Origin: a virus
Virus record (IMG/VR): IMGVR_UViG_3300018074_000013
Location: 1-33,910 of that record
DNA length: 33,910 bases
Strand: one strand, 5' to 3'
Below, in pieces: positions 10,499 to 19,981 of this stretch. Below the pieces are notes generated by a model. The model was not told where the DNA came from. It did not search any database and saw only the letters and a list, made by a program, of their open reading frames with translations. The position numbers and the translations under genes were made by a program. Each line of letters opens with the position of its first letter. Position 1 is the stretch's first letter.

Positions 10499-10735
10499 AT
10501 GAATCTGAGCGATGAGAGACTCGATGAGATTCTTTTGAAATTGATCCGAGGAGAGCACCCGGATCATAAGGACCTGGAACGAATCATCCTTGAGTTGAAA
10601 TGTCAGCGATCGAGGACATGGATGTGGTTGTTGCAGCCTCAGCCTTTGCAGCCTTACTATATTTACCCGAACCCGAACCAGCCACCATCGGTATTACCCA
10701 TCTACTGCGAGACTGGCGGCCTTGGCGACTGCTAA
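10499..10735 (+). CDS. Unknown small protein with Pro/Tyr-rich tail, 78 aa
   Basis: ATG behind AGAAAGGGAGAACA, a good SD. Residues 1-40 form an acidic/basic helical region (MNLSDERLDEILLKLIRGEH). Residues 41-70 switch to a Pro/Gln/Tyr/Trp-rich stretch (LLQPQPLQPYYIYPNPNQPP), ending near a cysteine. The stop overlaps the TTG start of the MuF gene. Another frame (10600-10773) is open across the second half, so the exact C-terminus is less certain than the start. No function recognised. Confidence 0.6.
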   Translation: MNLSDERLDEILLKLIRGEHPDHKDLERIILELKCQRSRTWMWLLQPQPLQPYYIYPNPNQPPSVLPIYCETGGLGDC

Positions 10736-12791
10736 CGAGAAGCTCCTCCGGGTCTCCCTCCGTCACCAGGTAGATGTCCGCAGGTTCGCGGCCGGTGAGG
10801 TACGGGCGATCTTGCGCCTCCTTGAGGGGGCGGATCGGGAGTTGGTCGAAAAGCTTCGGGTGCGCCTCGCCCGCCTCGGGGCAGTGACTGACTTCACCAG
10901 CCGGCGATATCGGGCCGTGCTTGAGGAGATCAGGGAACTGCGCCGTACGGTCGTGGACGCGGTGCGGCGCCGGACTGCGGGGAAGCTCGAGGCGCTCGCG
11001 GCCCAAGAAATCCGGGCCGAGGGCAGGGCCATCAAGGCATCCATCCCGATCCGCGTCGAGTTGGCCCGCCTCCCGATTCAATCGGCCGCGGCCATCGCTA
11101 CCGAGCGCCCGTTCCAAGGGAAGCTCCTCGGGGAATGGTTCTCCGAACTCCGGGCAACTGACCAGCGGAACCTCGTCCAAGAGATCCAGCTCGGGTTGGC
11201 ACAGGGGGAAGGGGTACAGCAGATCGTTCGCCGGGTGGCTGGGACCCGCGCCAATGGGTTCCAGGACGGAGTCCTGGCGATCACCAGGAGGAATGCGGAG
11301 GCGGTGGTGCGGACCGCGGTGAACCACGTCTCAAATGCGGCCCGAGAAGCGGTCTGGGAGGGCAACGAGGATATCGTATCGGCCCTCCGGTGGACGGCCA
11401 CCCTTGATGGCCGGACATCTGCGATCTGTCGGTCCCGAGACGGGGCGCTCGTGATGCTGGACGATCGGCCACTGCCGGAGGGAGAGCGAGCACTGGAGCC
11501 AAATGGGGCGCGGCCTCCTGCCCACGTAAATTGTTTACTTGGCGATAGTTATGTATTGCCCTGTGGCGGGATCACGGCCGCTATGAAACGGTTTTATGCA
11601 GGAGAGATTGTGGTCATCCGCACGGCGTCGAAACACGAACTGACCTGCACCCCAAATCACCCGATACTCACAGATCGAGGATGGGTCGCAGCGAAGCTCC
11701 TGGATCGCAGCGACCGCGTAATCTGCTACCTTGGGAGTAAGGATCCATTTAGCGGTGTCGAACACGAACACCAGGATGGACCATCTCGAATCGAGAATGT
11801 AGCGCGTCCGCTTCTCGAAGGTCCGGGTATGAATTTGGTCTCGACTTCTGGATGCGACTTCCACGGCGATGCGATCGATGGCGAAGTCTGTATTATAGGG
11901 ACCAAAAGCCTTCTGAAACGTGTCGAAGCAGAGCCCGCGCTCCAGCATCATATCGTTAAACAATCTCTCGAGAGTAGAGGATCGAGAGTCCATCTTTCCC
12001 TCCCTGGTTCTGGCACTAAGGCATTTCTCCTGGAGAGACCTCGTTCGTCCTCTAGACGCAATATGGGCGGCCGAAATCTGGGCCGCCCTATCCTCCGGTG
12101 TTCTTCTATCCCAGATTCCCTGATTAGCCTCACAGCCTCGTCTTCTCTTCTCGGGATCTCTCCATGCCAGGCGACGAGCCTCTCCGGCACTTCGTCTCGA
12201 TATTCCTCGTTCCTTGAGAATTCGATAGAGGACGATGTCCGAGAATTCGCGATTTCGGCAGATGTCATGGACTCCCTCTCCGGACACGTATCGTGTGACG
12301 AGATCGTCGATATCGAACGGCGTGATTTTTCGGGCCACGTGTTTAACCTCCAAACCGGTTCCGGAATTTATTTTGCCACATTCGGTAACATAATAACACA
12401 TAACTGCCGATCCGTCATGGTCTCCGTGATCGATGGTGAGGCCCTGGTGGGTAACCGGCCCTTCGTCAGCGATGCCCGCCGGCCAGACGAGCGTCTGGCT
12501 GACTTCCGGGCCGAGGCTAGGCGCACCGGACGCCCGATCGGGGAGATCCGCGAGGAATGGGCCGATGAGAACATTGGGAGCGTGCCGGCCAAGATCACTT
12601 ACGGGGAGTGGCTCGGGGACCAGTCAGCAGCGTTCCAAGACGAGGTCCTGGGTCCAACCCGCGGAGCACTATTCCGTCGCGGCGGGCTGGAGATCCATGA
12701 GTTTACTGATCGGAGGGGAAATGAACTGACCCTCGAGGAGCTGGAGGCCCGGCACGGCGATGCCTTTGAAGAAGCGAACTTAGGGGATTGA
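10722..12791 (+). CDS. MuF-like head morphogenesis protein interrupted by an intein
   Basis: SPP1 gp7/Mu gpF-like minor head protein that binds the portal. TTG start at 10722 gives the usual N-terminus (ATANEKLLRVSLRHQVDVRR); no ATG is available upstream in frame. Extein residues 1-270 are helical, then the MuF core WTATLDGRTSAICRSRDG (224-241) and PPAHVN (265-270). The conserved H-x-N-C-R-S motif is split: after N270 comes a 291-aa intein (271-561), and C562-R-S continues the extein to residue 689. After splicing the protein would be 398 aa, normal for the family. The intein tract is more AT-rich than the exteins. Confidence 0.9.
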   Translation: MATANEKLLRVSLRHQVDVRRFAAGEVRAILRLLEGADRELVEKLRVRLARLGAVTDFTSRRYRAVLEEIRELRRTVVDAVRRRTAGKLEALAAQEIRAEGRAIKASIPIRVELARLPIQSAAAIATERPFQGKLLGEWFSELRATDQRNLVQEIQLGLAQGEGVQQIVRRVAGTRANGFQDGVLAITRRNAEAVVRTAVNHVSNAAREAVWEGNEDIVSALRWTATLDGRTSAICRSRDGALVMLDDRPLPEGERALEPNGARPPAHVNCLLGDSYVLPCGGITAAMKRFYAGEIVVIRTASKHELTCTPNHPILTDRGWVAAKLLDRSDRVICYLGSKDPFSGVEHEHQDGPSRIENVARPLLEGPGMNLVSTSGCDFHGDAIDGEVCIIGTKSLLKRVEAEPALQHHIVKQSLESRGSRVHLSLPGSGTKAFLLERPRSSSRRNMGGRNLGRPILRCSSIPDSLISLTASSSLLGISPCQATSLSGTSSRYSSFLENSIEDDVREFAISADVMDSLSGHVSCDEIVDIERRDFSGHVFNLQTGSGIYFATFGNIITHNCRSVMVSVIDGEALVGNRPFVSDARRPDERLADFRAEARRTGRPIGEIREEWADENIGSVPAKITYGEWLGDQSAAFQDEVLGPTRGALFRRGGLEIHEFTDRRGNELTLEELEARHGDAFEEANLGD
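11532..12404 (+). mobile_element. Intein in MuF, 291 aa, with nested antisense endonuclease gene
   Basis: Self-splicing protein element. It begins with Cys (block A CLLGDSYVLP), has block B TCTPNHPILTDRGW with TxxH at intein residues 40-43, a block F-like segment DFSGHVFNLQTGSGIYF, and ends in block G NIITHN followed by extein Cys: a class 1 Cys1/Asn-Cys+1 design. Only about 68 N-terminal and 37 C-terminal residues look like splicing domain. The 185 residues between have no LAGLIDADG or HNH motif and are Ser/Arg/Leu-rich filler. The opposite strand carries an endonuclease gene over almost the whole element. Insertion is at the catalytically or structurally conserved HVN/CRS motif, as is typical for inteins. 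Confidence 0.9.
11535..12338 (-). CDS. Antisense Vsr-like (EDxHD/PD-(D/E)XK) homing endonuclease inside the intein
   Basis: 267 codons from GTG (complement of 12336-12338) to TAA, the complement of intein codon 2. GGAGG (complement of 12347-12351) lies eight bases before the GTG. An upstream in-frame ATG, the complement of the intein's penultimate His codon, gives 288 aa but has no SD. Domains: N-terminal HTH (about 9-55, DDLVTRYVSGEG...ILKERGISRRS), basic linker, then a nuclease core: E124 (STLERLF), QKAFGPYNTDFAID with D151, IAVEV with E160, H170, RTRYILDSRWSILVF, and a C-terminal EYRVIWG. This matches the layout of phage homing endonucleases related to Vsr/I-Bth0305I. The usual 'GG.WH' after VEV is not seen, so activity is uncertain. 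It would cut intein-free MuF alleles. Confidence 0.8.
   Translation of the reverse strand: MARKITPFDIDDLVTRYVSGEGVHDICRNREFSDIVLYRILKERGISRRSAGEARRLAWRDPEKRRRGCEANQGIWDRRTPEDRAAQISAAHIASRGRTRSLQEKCLSARTREGKMDSRSSTLERLFNDMMLERGLCFDTFQKAFGPYNTDFAIDRIAVEVASRSRDQIHTRTFEKRTRYILDSRWSILVFVFDTAKWILTPKVADYAVAAIQELRCDPSSICEYRVIWGAGQFVFRRRADDHNLSCIKPFHSGRDPATGQYITIAK
12347..12418 (-). promoter_or_regulatory. Candidate minus-strand promoter and SD for the antisense endonuclease
   Basis: Read on the minus strand: -35-like ATGACG (complement of 12413-12418), a 17-base spacer, -10-like TATTAT (complement of 12390-12395), then about 40 bases to GGAGG (complement of 12347-12351) and the GTG. The -10 matches five of six sigma-70 consensus bases and the -35 four of six. 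The -35 lies in the C-extein and the -10 in the codons of block G (NIIT), so the element spans the junction. The SD uses the codons of block F (FNL). Pattern match only. Confidence 0.45.
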
Positions 12792-15799: not shown

Positions 15800-16618
15800 A
15801 TGGCTTACTTTTTCGTGGAGCTCCCTACTGGATCTCTCAATGCGACCCGGTTCGACGGCGTCGGTACATATCTCGTTGAGGCAGCCAATGCCACCGAGGC
15901 GAAAAATATGTGTCGAGCTGAGCATTCCGGTGATTTCGGGTGGGAGGACGCTACGGCTACGCAGATCACGGGCGCTTTCGCGGCTGATCTGCTCGGTTGG
16001 GAATACCGCGTACGGGTCAGTCTCGCATCAGGTGGGGAGCCCGATCTGGTCGATGTGAGTGGAAAGGTGGCTGCTGGGCAGATCGGCGTCACCTCCATCA
16101 CCCTCGGGGCTGGAGGTACTGGCTACACCGTCAACGATGTGCTCACCGTCTCGGGCGGGACGTTCACCGCCTCGGCCCGGCTGAAGGCGACGACCGTAGC
16201 GGCTGGCGCCGTGACCGCGGCCGTTGTGATTGATCCAGGGCTCTATACGACCCTGCCGACGAATCCTGCTGCCGTCACCGGCGGGACCGGGACTGGGGCG
16301 ACCTTTAACCTCACTGGTACATCGAGTCTGAACAACGTCGTGATGTGCGGCGTCCTGACGAAGAAGTTGCAGGATACGGCGCCAATCGCCGGTGCGACCT
16401 TCGAGCCGGCGAGCAATCTGCTGACTGTGGCGGCTGCTAGTGACAACCTGGGCGATCGGACGCTGCGGGTGGAGACGTTTCCCCCAGGCGCTAAGGAACT
16501 GATGCCGTCGAGCCCGCTGGTGGGTACAATCGTCCACCAGGGCGCGGTTGGCGCGGCCTTGACGGTCGTCCTTCCGCTCCCAACCCCGATCCCAGTTGTC
16601 ATTCGGAGATTAAAATAA
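15800..16618 (+). CDS. Capsid decoration-like protein carrying a GGTGYTV module, 272 aa
   Basis: ATG with CATAGGAGAAATCG upstream. The N-terminal 90 residues start MAYFFVELPTGSLNATRFDG and contain VEAANATEAKNMCRAEHSGD, probably a small alpha/beta domain. Residues about 102-172 are a Gly/Thr/Ala-rich beta module ([19 protein letters not shown]...[12 protein letters not shown]) also found in the tail tube and tail-tip proteins. The C-terminal 100 residues include a DRTLRVETFPPG segment and a hydrophobic LTVVLPLPTPIPVVIRR end. Position directly after the capsid gene suggests a head decoration or capsid-stabilising protein; family not recognised. Confidence 0.7.
   Translation: MAYFFVELPTGSLNATRFDGVGTYLVEAANATEAKNMCRAEHSGDFGWEDATATQITGAFAADLLGWEYRVRVSLASGGEPDLVDVSGKVAAGQIGVTSITLGAGGTGYTVNDVLTVSGGTFTASARLKATTVAAGAVTAAVVIDPGLYTTLPTNPAAVTGGTGTGATFNLTGTSSLNNVVMCGVLTKKLQDTAPIAGATFEPASNLLTVAAASDNLGDRTLRVETFPPGAKELMPSSPLVGTIVHQGAVGAALTVVLPLPTPIPVVIRRLK
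16103..16315 (+). repeat. GGTGYTV coding module, copy 1
   Basis: About 71 codons. Landmarks: [31 protein letters not shown], a short variable strand with Y, PTNPAA and [12 protein letters not shown]. Homologous to the modules in the tail tube (19337-19552) and the tail-tip protein (three copies from 24416). Related at protein level and partly at DNA level (GGCGGGACCGG). Confidence 0.85.
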
Positions 16619-16821
16619 TGGGTAGTGTAATCCTGCGGCACATCAAGACTACCCCCGAGGGATGGAGTACGTACTCTGCGAGATGGAGCAACGTCGGGGA
16701 GGGTCTGCCACGCAGGCCGCAGCGCATGGCTCCAGAGATGCTCATTCCACAGAGAGAGACCGATAGGCGCTTCATCCCGAGGGGTGTCGATCGGAACACT
16801 CCGGGGGGCGGGAGACTGTGA
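16618..16821 (+). CDS. Unknown small basic protein, 67 aa
   Basis: ATG overlaps the upstream TAA (TAATG) and the gene ends right before the next GTG start (TGAGTG). The product (MGSVILRHIKTTPEGWSTYS...) is basic and rich in Arg, Pro and Gly, with little predicted structure after residue 30 and an Arg/Gly end. No family or motif was recognised. Tight coupling on both sides supports it as a real gene in the head-completion block. Confidence 0.65.
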   Translation: MGSVILRHIKTTPEGWSTYSARWSNVGEGLPRRPQRMAPEMLIPQRETDRRFIPRGVDRNTPGGGRL

Positions 16822-17331
16822 GTGGCATTCCTCATCCAGAACGATTCCGGCTCCGTGAGCGGGGCTAACGCCTACGTCACCGCCGCCGAGTTCAAGGCCT
16901 ACCATGCGGACCGAGGGGCGGACGTGGCCGGCGAGGCGGATGCCGACGTCCAGATCGCGATCATCAAGGCGACCGACTATATGGACCACCGCTTCCGCTT
17001 CCGGGGGGACCGCTCGACCGTCGCCCAGCGGACGGCGTGGCCCAGGACGCTCCCGGAGGATGACGACCAACATGCCAGGAGTGGCATACCACAGGAGGTT
17101 AAGGAGGCGTGCATGGACTACGCGCTGATCGCGTTGACCTCCGAGCTGAACCCGATCCCCACGCGGGACGCCGCAGGGGCCGTGGTCCAGTCCAGGAGCG
17201 AGCAGGTCGGGCCGGTGTCGGAGTCCACCAGCTACGTCGGTGGCGCCACGTTCTCGGAGCCCCGCTACCCGAAGGCCGACTTCAAACTCCGCGGGCTGAT
17301 CGAGCAGTCCGGTTACCTCGTGAGAGGATAG
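16822..17331 (+). CDS. Head-tail adaptor (DnaT-like domain family), 169 aa
   Basis: GTG start overlapping the upstream stop. The N-terminus has SVSGANAYVTAAEFKAYHAD, then VQIAIIKATDYMDHRFRFRGDR, QRTAWPRT, and a helical IPQEVKEACMDYALIAL. This 'ANAYVS...F..Y...A........A.I.ATDY.D..YRWRG......Q...WPR......IP..V..A' pattern is that of phage head-tail adaptor proteins often named DnaT-like ssDNA-binding by domain search. They sit on the portal and extend the connector. Location after the capsid genes and before other connector genes fits. Confidence 0.8.
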   Translation: MAFLIQNDSGSVSGANAYVTAAEFKAYHADRGADVAGEADADVQIAIIKATDYMDHRFRFRGDRSTVAQRTAWPRTLPEDDDQHARSGIPQEVKEACMDYALIALTSELNPIPTRDAAGAVVQSRSEQVGPVSESTSYVGGATFSEPRYPKADFKLRGLIEQSGYLVRG

Positions 17332-17332
17332 G

Positions 17333-17704
17333 ATGGCCCGGTTCGACATCCTGATCGCCACCGCCAAGCGGCTGCTGGCCAGGAACGGGGAGACCTCCAC
17401 GCTGTCCCGGGCTACCCCCGGGACACCGGCGGATCCGGCGAAGCCGTGGGAGCCCGGGGCGCCGGGCGTGACGAACACGAAAGTATCCGCGGTCTGGCTC
17501 AATGAGTCGGTCCTCCGCCGAGCCACGCTTGTCAAGGAGGGCGAGGTGTTCGCCATCCTGGCCGGGAAGGATCTCAAATCCGATCCGGACCCGGCGACGG
17601 ACGTCCTGATCAGGGCCGACAAGAGCCGGTGGGCGCTGATCGAGGTCAGGCCTCTGAACCCCAATGGGCAGAATCTTATCTTCGAGGTTACGGCGAGGCA
17701 GTAG
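17333..17704 (+). CDS. Putative head-tail connector / head-closure protein, 123 aa
   Basis: ATG behind GAGAGGATAGG, two bases after the previous stop. N-terminal helix FDILIATAKRLLARNGETSTL, then Pro-rich loop (TPGTPADPAKPWEPG), and a beta barrel-like C-terminal half (KVSAVWLNESV, EVFAILAGKDL, DVLIRADKSRWALIEVRPLNP). This layout, with 'I..DG..W.V..V.PL.P.G...LY.V..R' near the end, resembles small head-closure proteins that follow the adaptor gene. Function is assigned mainly by gene order. Confidence 0.7.
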   Translation: MARFDILIATAKRLLARNGETSTLSRATPGTPADPAKPWEPGAPGVTNTKVSAVWLNESVLRRATLVKEGEVFAILAGKDLKSDPDPATDVLIRADKSRWALIEVRPLNPNGQNLIFEVTARQ

Positions 17705-17706
17705 GT

Positions 17707-18156
17707 ATGCCGACGACCTTCGACGCAGCCAGGGATGAGATCCTCGGGGCCTTCAGGACGCGGTGGGAGGCCGACGCGGCGGCGATCGTCGGGTTCGTAC
17801 CCGACGTGTTTTACGACGGAGTACCGAGGACTAGCGCCCCATCTCCGGATAAGCCATGGGCCGATGTGACGATTCGGCACACGTCGGGTGCCCAAGCGAC
17901 CCTCGCCCAGGACACGGGCAAGCGGCGCTTCGAGAAGACCGGGATCGTGACCGTGGGCGTGTTCGCCCCCCTCGGGCAGAACCGCGGCCTCGAGGACGGC
18001 GAGAAGCTGGCTATGGTGGCTAAGAAGGCCTTCGAGGGTAAGGCGACCGCCGGCGGCGTCTGGTTTCGGAACGTGCGGATCTCGGAGGTGGGACAGGACG
18101 GGCCCTGGTTCGCTTTTCAAATTTTGGCCGAGATGCGATATGACGAGTTCGTGTGA
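17707..18156 (+). CDS. Tail terminator-like protein (DUF4128-like), 149 aa
   Basis: ATG at 17707, two bases after the upstream TAG; the frame is open upstream but overlapping the previous gene, so this start is chosen. N-terminal helix with DEILGAFRTRWEADAAAIVG, a VFYDGVPRTSAPSPDKPWADVTIRH segment and a QATLAQDTGKRRFEKTGIVTVGVFAPLG strand pair. This is the pattern of tail terminator proteins, which cap the tail tube and join it to the head. Typical length and position before the tail tube gene. Confidence 0.75.
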   Translation: MPTTFDAARDEILGAFRTRWEADAAAIVGFVPDVFYDGVPRTSAPSPDKPWADVTIRHTSGAQATLAQDTGKRRFEKTGIVTVGVFAPLGQNRGLEDGEKLAMVAKKAFEGKATAGGVWFRNVRISEVGQDGPWFAFQILAEMRYDEFV

Positions 18157-18184
18157 CGTGGTAGAATTACGGAGGAGTAAATAG

Positions 18185-19981
18185 ATGGTCGCTGTTCTTA
18201 AGATCGACAGTAACGTCGTGGGTCTCCGCATCGCGGAGGAGACGAGCCTGAAGGTCCTTCCGGGGACTCCAATCTGGGATCCGTTCGAGCCGAACTCCTT
18301 CGCCGACTTCGGCGGGGAGATCACGACAGTCGCCAGAAATCCCATTAACCCGGGGCGTCAGCGCAAGAAGGGCGTGACGACCGACCTCGACGCGAGCGGC
18401 GGGTTCAATACGGATCTGACACAGACGAACCTCCAGAAGCACCTCCAGGGGTTCTTCTTCGCGGACCTGCGGATCAAGACCGACCTGGACGTGGCGATCG
18501 TGGACACCGGCGATACCGGCGACGACTATGAGCCGGCGTCCGGCGGGACCGGCTTCCGGGTGAACGACCTGCTCTTTGCCTCGGGGTTCGCCGTCTCGCA
18601 GAATAACGGCCTGAAGGTAGTGACCGGCACCGTGACCGCGACGAGCGTCCCGGTGATCACGCCCCTAACCCCAGCTACCGGGCAGACCGGCAAGATCACT
18701 CGGGTCGGGCATCAGTTCGCCACGGGCGACGCCCGGATCGATACGTCCGGAGCCCTCCCGAAGTTGGTCACGACCACCAAGGATCTGACCCAGCTCGGGG
18801 TGATCCCGGGCGAGTACCTCTTCGTCGGCGGGGACGCGACCGCCGAACAGTTCGCCACGGTCGGGAACAATGGCTTCGCTCGGGTGCGCTCAGTCGCCAC
18901 GAACGCGATCGAATTCGATAAAACGGCCGGCAATATGGCGACCGACCTTGGGACTGGCAAGACCATCCGGGTCTTCCACGGGGCCAGGGTCCTCAAGAAT
19001 GAGACCGGTACCCTGATCAAGCGGCGCACGTATCAGCTCGAGCGGACCCTCGGGGCGCCGGACGACGCGCTTCCGACCCAGGTCCAGAGTGAGTACGTCG
19101 TGGGAGCCGTTACGAATGAGCTGACACTGAACATCCCGGTGGCCGACAAAGTAACGCTGGACCTGACCTACGTCGGGCTGGACGTGGAGCAGAGGACCGG
19201 CGCGACTGGCGTGAAGTCCGGCACCAGGCCGGCCCTCATCGAGGCCGACGCGTTCAACACGAGTTCTGACTTCTCCAGGATCAAGCTGGCCCGATTCGGG
19301 GCCAGCACGACGAATCGGGAGGCGCTCACGGCGACGGTGGGTGCCGGCGGTACGGGATATACCGTGAACGACATTCTAACGATCGTCGGCGGGACCTTCG
19401 CGGTCGCGGCCAAGTTCAAGGTGACGACCGTGAGCGCCGGCGCGGTGACCGCCGTCGTGGTGGACACCCGCGGTAGCTACACGATCACGCCGTCGAACCC
19501 GGCGGCCACGACCGGCGGGACCGGCACCGGGGCGACTCTGAACGTGACTTACGCGTTCATCGACACGTGGGCCAATCCGACTCCGCTCTTCGCGTTCGCC
19601 AGCGACCTGAGCCTGACCGTGAACAACAATGCGGACCCCCTGAAGGCGGTCGGTGTCCTGGGGGCCTTCGAGGTGGGCGTGGGGACCTTCGAGGTCGGCG
19701 GGTCGATGACCGTCTTCCTCGCCGACATCCCGGCGATCCAGGCCGTGAGGGACAACAGCGATGTGACGCTCGACGTGCACCTCGTGAAGTCCAATGCCGG
19801 GATCTCGGTCGACGTGCCTCTTCTGACCCTCGGCGACGGGAGGCCGGATGTTGCTCAAGATGAGCCTATCACGCTGCCCCTAACGATCAATGCGTCCACC
19901 GGGGCGAAGATCAGCACGAGTCTGGACCATACGCTTTTGATCTGCTTCTATGATTTTCTCCCAAGTGCTGCTGACGTGTAA
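18185..19981 (+). CDS. Tail tube protein with inserted GGTGYTV module, 598 aa
   Basis: ATG with ACGGAGGAGTAAAT upstream, a strong SD. The N-terminus has the tail tube pattern: [20 protein letters not shown], then [40 protein letters not shown] and [10 protein letters not shown]. At 598 aa it is far longer than a usual major tail protein because of extra domains. Residues 385-456 carry one full GGTGYTV module, and residues about 115-134 hold a degenerate one ([17 protein letters not shown]). The C-terminal part ([22 protein letters not shown]) returns to a tail-tube-like beta domain. Extra domains probably decorate the outside of the tail. Confidence 0.82.
19337..19552 (+). repeat. GGTGYTV coding module, copy 2
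   Basis: About 72 codons inside the tail tube gene: [55 protein letters not shown]. Clearly the same module as at 16103-16315. A shortened relative lies near 18527-18590. Confidence 0.85.

Follow-up and report, generated by a model that had tools for sequence, protein, structure and literature searches.

The window analyzed here, the whole 33,910-nucleotide stretch of the IMG/VR virus record IMGVR_UViG_3300018074_000013, carries on its plus strand a MuF, or minor head morphogenesis, gene (positions 10722 to 12791) that matches both Pfam Phage_Mu_F (4e-11) and phrog_241, head morphogenesis (1.8e-124). Its 689-aa ORF includes an intein of 291 residues (11532 to 12404, plus strand), which begins with C1, ends with N291 and is followed by Cys+1 at 12405; the exteins lie at 10722 to 11531 and 12405 to 12788 on the same strand, with the stop codon at 12789 to 12791. 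Block B (TPNHPILT, 11649 to 11672) and block G (GNIITHN, 12384 to 12404, including the terminal Asn) are encoded on the plus strand, and C1, T40, H43, and N291 were invariant across 50 sense inteins. With a C terminus of THN and C as the next residue, the window's intein meets the splice-block criteria (blocks A, B, F, and G and a nucleophilic +1 residue). The Pfam Intein_splicing match to the sense protein (1.4e-7) was under that family's curated cut-off, and TIGR01445, intein_Nterm (NCBIfam), scored 24.7 bits, over its cut-off. Consistent with the Hint fold, the AlphaFold2 model of the sense protein matched intein structures with a Z of 13.7 over 111 residues at 1.3 Å. Confidence was high over residues 1 to 70 and 251 to 291 (block means >85) and low, mostly <50, over approximately residues 128 to 236, and by this model the central region, a sense translation of the antisense gene described below, is mostly unstructured. 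Pfam and NCBIfam matched no endonuclease domain in frame with the splicing domain, and the criterion for a nested in-frame endonuclease was not met. Joined exteins of relatives, not of the window itself, matched intein-free phages contiguously (780/780 and 732/732). Profile and fold matches thus show that the sense strand encodes an intein, while protein splicing itself is inferred. An earlier note, made from the sequence alone, had claimed that an intein with blocks A, B, F, and G interrupts MuF, which held, and that its center lacks LAGLIDADG, HNH, or GIY-YIG motifs, which held insofar as no endonuclease domain was matched.

On the minus strand, positions 11535 to 12401 form an open reading frame whose codon register exactly matches that of the intein. 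Within it lies a homing-endonuclease-like gene of 267 aa (11535 to 12338, with a GTG start at 12338 to 12336 and a TAA stop at 11537 to 11535), supported by intact full-length relatives and by an AlphaFold2 model with a mean pLDDT of 86.3. A Shine-Dalgarno (SD) sequence, GGAGG (12347 to 12351, minus strand), falls within the codons that encode block F (HVFNLQ) on the sense strand, and in 116 related elements an SD of the GGAGG or GAGGT type, together with a start, was found within the block F codons. GTG 12338, not ATG 12401, is the likely start of the gene. The earlier note had placed the antisense TAA at intein codon 2, which held, and the start near the last codons of the intein, which is corrected here to block F; its residue numbers E124, D151, and E160 agree with a start at GTG 12338. 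A candidate promoter, ATGACG-17-TATTAT with an extended TG (12390 to 12418, minus strand), lies inside the block G codons. Across the block F/G region of relatives, the extended -10-like box reached 5.74 in the antisense direction versus 4.60 in synonymous shuffles (p=1e-13), with a smaller excess in the sense direction (4.93 versus 4.51) and no excess over synonymous shuffles in extein controls. The antisense gene likely has its own promoter in block G, although this evidence is only suggestive and antisense expression is inferred. The length of an antisense ORF alone proves nothing here, because chance antisense ORFs reach 700 aa in the same GC-rich window, and the case for the antisense gene therefore rests on comparison. 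The 700-aa ORF in question (16243 to 18345, minus strand) is longer than the real antisense gene and probably reflects chance in a GC-rich genome.

Single-sequence searches of Pfam, NCBIfam, and the PDB with the window's antisense protein returned nothing useful, and only profiles and fold were informative. A profile of the antisense family matched the catalytic domain of I-Bth0305I (PDB 3R3P, E=1.2e-5), as well as the Vsr-like protein 3HRL and HTH proteins. Pfam MTES_1575 was found in 10 of 18 family members, and Pfam DUF559 and HTH models matched many of them. At the level of structure, the antisense model matched Vsr (1CW0; Z 10.3, 111 residues, 2.4 Å), I-Bth0305I (3R3P; Z 9.1, 94/97 residues), and 3HRL (Z 8.1); Foldseek alone ranked I-Bth0305I at the top, at a weak E of 0.057. 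An N-terminal HTH (residues 4 to 46; 12201 to 12329, minus strand) was assigned from AlphaFold2 helices, a match to a resolvase HTH (Z 6.1), and HTH_7 in 12 of 18 relatives, and a Vsr-like PD-(D/E)XK nuclease domain (residues 119 to 238; 11625 to 11984, minus strand) from the fold matches. The claim that the minus strand encodes an HTH plus a PD-(D/E)XK, Vsr-like pattern was thus upheld by profile, Pfam, and fold, and the possibility that the minus-strand protein would match no nuclease was ruled out by the same searches.

Three acidic residues of this protein are candidates for catalysis, all encoded on the minus strand. E124 (11967 to 11969) was ≥90% conserved in 73 relatives, where the residue was not fixed by the search pattern, and equally among relatives chosen by tblastn. 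D151 (11886 to 11888) and E160 (GAA, the complement of sense F110; 11859 to 11861) were invariant in the 18 tblastn-chosen relatives. This conservation fits a PD-(D/E)XK-like site. No histidine was present in the invariant or near-invariant columns of either the 18 or the 73 relatives. Because the strict EDxHD motif requires a conserved histidine, the antisense protein was not filed as EDxHD and catalysis by E124, D151, and E160 is assigned only by analogy. DNA cleavage is likewise inferred.

We scrutinized phage records by tblastn with the antisense protein. There were 121 matching records, 105 of them covering at least 80% of that protein, with E values down to 6e-22, from phages infecting Salmonella, Vibrio, Pantoea, Pseudomonas, Gordonia, Klebsiella, and others. 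Where a match carried annotation, it fell in a gene for a head or minor-capsid protein or in an ORF without a name. In the relatives retrieved, the antisense ORF was intact and shared its codon register with a sense intein. A back-translated DNA pattern of the nuclease core, scanned over IMG/VR, identified at least 120 stretches, essentially every one at a locus encoding the antisense family, and genome contigs added seven elements. This pattern imposes Y, N, D, and [IV]AVE, so that their invariance in the A3 set is partly by construction; the A1 set, comprising the 18 relatives picked by tblastn, is free of this bias. In total, 148 elements were examined, selected on the antisense protein alone, and in 147 the complementary register was stop-free across the endonuclease, the lone exception being a free-standing copy with 12 stops in that register. 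Among candidates for a decayed antisense copy beside an intact sense intein, L151, L152, and L154, picked up through sense similarity, proved intact on both strands, the element of Escherichia phage vB-Eco-KMB36 (L150) was also open through its endonuclease gene, L153 is a frameshifted and unverified record, and in Rhodococcus REQ3 the antisense ORF is shortened. Frequent minus-strand stops in homologous inteins were not found, as more than 100 of them keep full-length ORFs. Only one further contig in the viral collection, searched with the protein of either strand, carries the window's own element, and since its protein is identical, selection was measured on relatives.

Three codons, TTA, CTA, and TCA, give stops on the sense strand when complemented. 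None of them was used in 109 endonuclease genes, against 599.7 expected (sd 21) from the extein codon usage of the same genes, and they were absent even from elements of 37 to 45% GC. By comparison, the antisense register of N-exteins was stop-free in 0 of 101. With the codons in this alignment, the first sense position corresponds to the third antisense position, and differences per codon at sense positions 1/2/3 were determined for 17 independent pairs. N-exteins gave.303/.237/.470 and the region just outside the antisense stop.147/.126/.529. Inside the antisense gene, values were.221/.078/.228 for its tail opposite blocks A/B,.323/.125/.230 for the catalytic domain, and.391/.176/.288 for the HTH part, and in the splice blocks beyond the antisense start they were.118/.075/.324. 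Extein pairs were sense-type in 17 of 17, whereas endonuclease-body pairs were antisense-type in 15 of 17 (sign test p=0.002; Wilcoxon p=5e-4), with variation greater at sense position 1 than at position 3. Constraint therefore changes strand at the ends of the endonuclease gene and is dual where the antisense tail overlaps splice blocks A/B, and purifying selection restricted to the plus frame is not what was observed. The antisense/sense asymmetry of substitutions in the endonuclease body was modest (1272 versus 924), so the constraint on the endonuclease is weaker or more complex than that on an ordinary gene.

Conservation on the sense strand was not restricted to the splice blocks. A sense FHGD motif (F110 to D113; 11859 to 11870, plus strand) overlaps the antisense core VAVE and was ≥90% conserved in sense. 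In relatives, the codons for A158, V159, and E160 were GCC in 97/103, GTG in 98/102, and GAA in 96/103, compared with usages of 45%, 20%, and 46%, respectively, elsewhere in the same antisense genes; freezing of these third positions is not imposed by the DNA search pattern. The frozen codons GCC GTG GAA keep sense F-H-G-D, and since the motif is conserved beyond the needs of antisense VAVE, the sense strand is not mere filler. FHGD is held in place by some function, as yet unidentified, of the sense strand or of the DNA itself. The earlier note had described the intein center as Ser/Arg/Leu-rich filler and had proposed that the sense strand need only stay open and splice; both claims failed in part, given this independently conserved motif opposite the nuclease core.

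Presence/absence polymorphism was evident among close relatives. The joined exteins of Gordonia phage Fosterous match the intein-free phages Geodirt (97.9%) and Rofo (97.6%) over 780/780 bases, and Nordenberg, 98.0% identical to the Fosterous flanks, bears an 825-bp insert at the Fosterous insertion site. The insert of Keitabear has the same length as that of Nordenberg, and the Keitabear allele is very different from the 948-bp allele of Fosterous; length is the sole basis for inferring that Nordenberg has the allele of Keitabear. In Jerseyvirus, MuF is either occupied (816 bp) or empty (FSL SP-101, 732/732 at 93.4%). The element is mobile, because phages with flanks more than 97% identical either lack it or hold another allele at that position, and the Gordonia phages and Jerseyvirus meet the homing-endonuclease criterion of presence/absence at identical sites in close relatives. 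A related element in vB-Eco-KMB36 (805 to 2775) occupies the same gene at a site other than the Jerseyvirus one; the record annotates a "minor head protein with inserted intein" and leaves the antisense endonuclease unannotated. Acinetobacter phage P1068 (locus L017, 1656 to 2549) has a free-standing intact endonuclease gene, annotated as hypothetical (WHB31326.1), that is convergent with an uninterrupted, intein-free MuF and overlaps the MuF stop. We regard this locus as an intronless-homing arrangement, homing again being inferred.

Host genes interrupted by these elements encode MuF, minor capsid 2, UDG, dCMP deaminase, terminase large subunit, head maturation protease, and others. In two elements (L034 and L140), UDG and DNA polymerase A domains lie in a single ORF whose UDG part holds the intein. 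In Virus Rctr197k (L011, 616 to 1968), a dCMP deaminase interrupted by the element is annotated as "putative head morphogenesis protein". The profile phrog_15127 ("head protein") recognizes the intein and its antisense shadow even where the interrupted genes are unrelated, so that it can mislabel intein-bearing dCMP deaminases and terminases as head proteins. One contig, IMGVR_UViG_3300025130_000006 (L024), holds two different antisense-endonuclease inteins (149 to 943 and 1085 to 1882), which apparently share a single MuF-like gene, one with Ser+1 and the other with Cys+1.

That both frames are conserved, that both are under protein-level selection, that both folds are matched, and that presence or absence is site-specific is shown by these data. 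We consider it very likely (probability approximately 0.87) that the element is a mobile intein consisting of two proteins encoded codon-on-codon on opposite strands; in the absence of biochemical data, splicing, antisense expression, DNA cleavage, and homing are inferred. In the proposed mechanism, the sense strand would be translated within MuF and the cis-splicing intein would excise itself post-translationally, while the antisense strand would serve as a separate gene for an HTH plus Vsr-like PD-(D/E)XK nuclease. During co-infection this nuclease would recognize intein-free alleles of the host gene and cut them at the insertion site, and repair from the occupied copy would insert the element. 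A bolder reading, in which we have scarcely less confidence, is that these inteins constitute a widespread selfish class with both strands selected even at the nuclease active site and with splice blocks that double as signals, block F as the ribosome-binding site and block G as the promoter of the antisense gene. The earlier proposal of a dual-coding selfish gene is thus supported, whereas its premise that the antisense product drives homing is still an inference.

Among alternative readings, the one that survives best, though very unlikely, is that both strands are coding and the nuclease does not act in homing but excludes competing phages or takes part in repair, with an essential gene as its shelter. 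Repair roles are established for Vsr-like nucleases, and phage homing endonucleases can act in interference between co-infecting phages. Against this, the gene lies outside inteins in just 1 of 148 elements, the insertion sites are exact with near-identical empty alleles, and two unrelated alleles occur at one site, as homing to a single target predicts. A second alternative, all but excluded, is that only the sense intein is real and the antisense ORF is its shadow in a GC-rich gene whose register favors open antisense frames. The long chance antisense ORFs in the window and the strong conservation of sense motifs favor it, but antisense homologues are full length in many phages, with nuclease profiles, folds, and SDs, variation at sense position 1 exceeds that at position 3 in most pairs, low-GC elements lack TTA, CTA, and TCA, and in P1068 the endonuclease gene is intact without an intein. 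Nor would mutational bias suffice, as the exteins of the same genes show no such asymmetry. The converse, that only the antisense nuclease is functional and the sense intein is dead and open by chance, can be set aside almost as firmly as that shadow: although sense residues of approximately 128 to 236 are poorly predicted and show antisense-type substitutions, there are no sense stops in 147/148 elements, the four key residues C1, T40, H43, and N291 do not vary, the splice blocks show sense-type constraint, and the host proteins, structural or otherwise essential, would be broken if unspliced. A fractured gene, with split-intein halves flanking a free-standing endonuclease gene and joined in trans, is suggested by reports that such genes pair inteins with the Vsr-like endonuclease family (Dassa 2009, cited in PMC10448857), but is practically ruled out by a sense frame unbroken across the whole element in 147/148 cases, which fails the split-intein criterion.

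The reading of two overlapping proteins on opposite strands places the element near several known systems. The endonuclease of known inteins is fused to the intein in frame and translated along with it (PMC3943268). Canonical homing inteins of the LAGLIDADG or HNH type likewise have a Hint domain, a conserved host-gene site, a nested endonuclease credited with their spread, and presence/absence polymorphism; here, however, the same codons read on the opposite strand encode the endonuclease as a separate Vsr-like protein. The fractured genes of Dassa et al. 2009, which reportedly pair split inteins with a separate EDxHD or Vsr-like endonuclease, share an intein locus and a separate Vsr-like protein, but there the endonuclease gene lies between the split halves, whereas here the endonuclease is antisense to an unbroken sense gene, which it overlaps. 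I-Bth0305I shares its catalytic-domain profile and fold with the antisense protein; unlike the latter, it is encoded by a group I intron, and the EDxHD histidine is not conserved in the antisense family. The Vsr, DUF559, and MTES_1575 families have the same nuclease fold and Pfam matches, to which the antisense protein adds HTH domains and a location inside inteins. The nearest analogue is the Didymium iridis group I intron S956-2, in which an antisense homing endonuclease gene is reported to code for an active enzyme (PMC13182076): there, too, a self-splicing element carries an endonuclease gene that runs opposite to the host gene. That element is an RNA intron in an rRNA gene with no overlap of two protein-coding frames, in contrast to the shared codons found here. 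The homing intein is a known kind of element, and its antisense architecture has no precedent that we found among inteins. The full-text literature searched contained no earlier description of an antisense endonuclease in inteins, in agreement with the earlier note, but it did not cover Dassa 2009, and priority is unproven.

If this reading is true, inteins gained a homing endonuclease by a route new for inteins: it came as an antisense gene of its own and not as a domain fused in frame. The element is apparently a clear example from nature of one set of codons that specifies two unrelated proteins, both folded, one on each strand, and it recurs often enough to measure how selection is partitioned among codon positions. 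This two-in-one design, present in well over a hundred viruses, had gone unnoticed in the literature we searched. It would explain the conserved "filler" (DFHGD) of annotated phage head proteins, and likewise the profile phrog_15127, and implies that sequenced phages hold at least 100 endonuclease genes without annotation. It would also provide a new family of nucleases, potentially site-specific and directed at conserved genes. Because empty, occupied, re-occupied, and free-standing states coexist, the origin of intein-endonuclease partnerships becomes testable.
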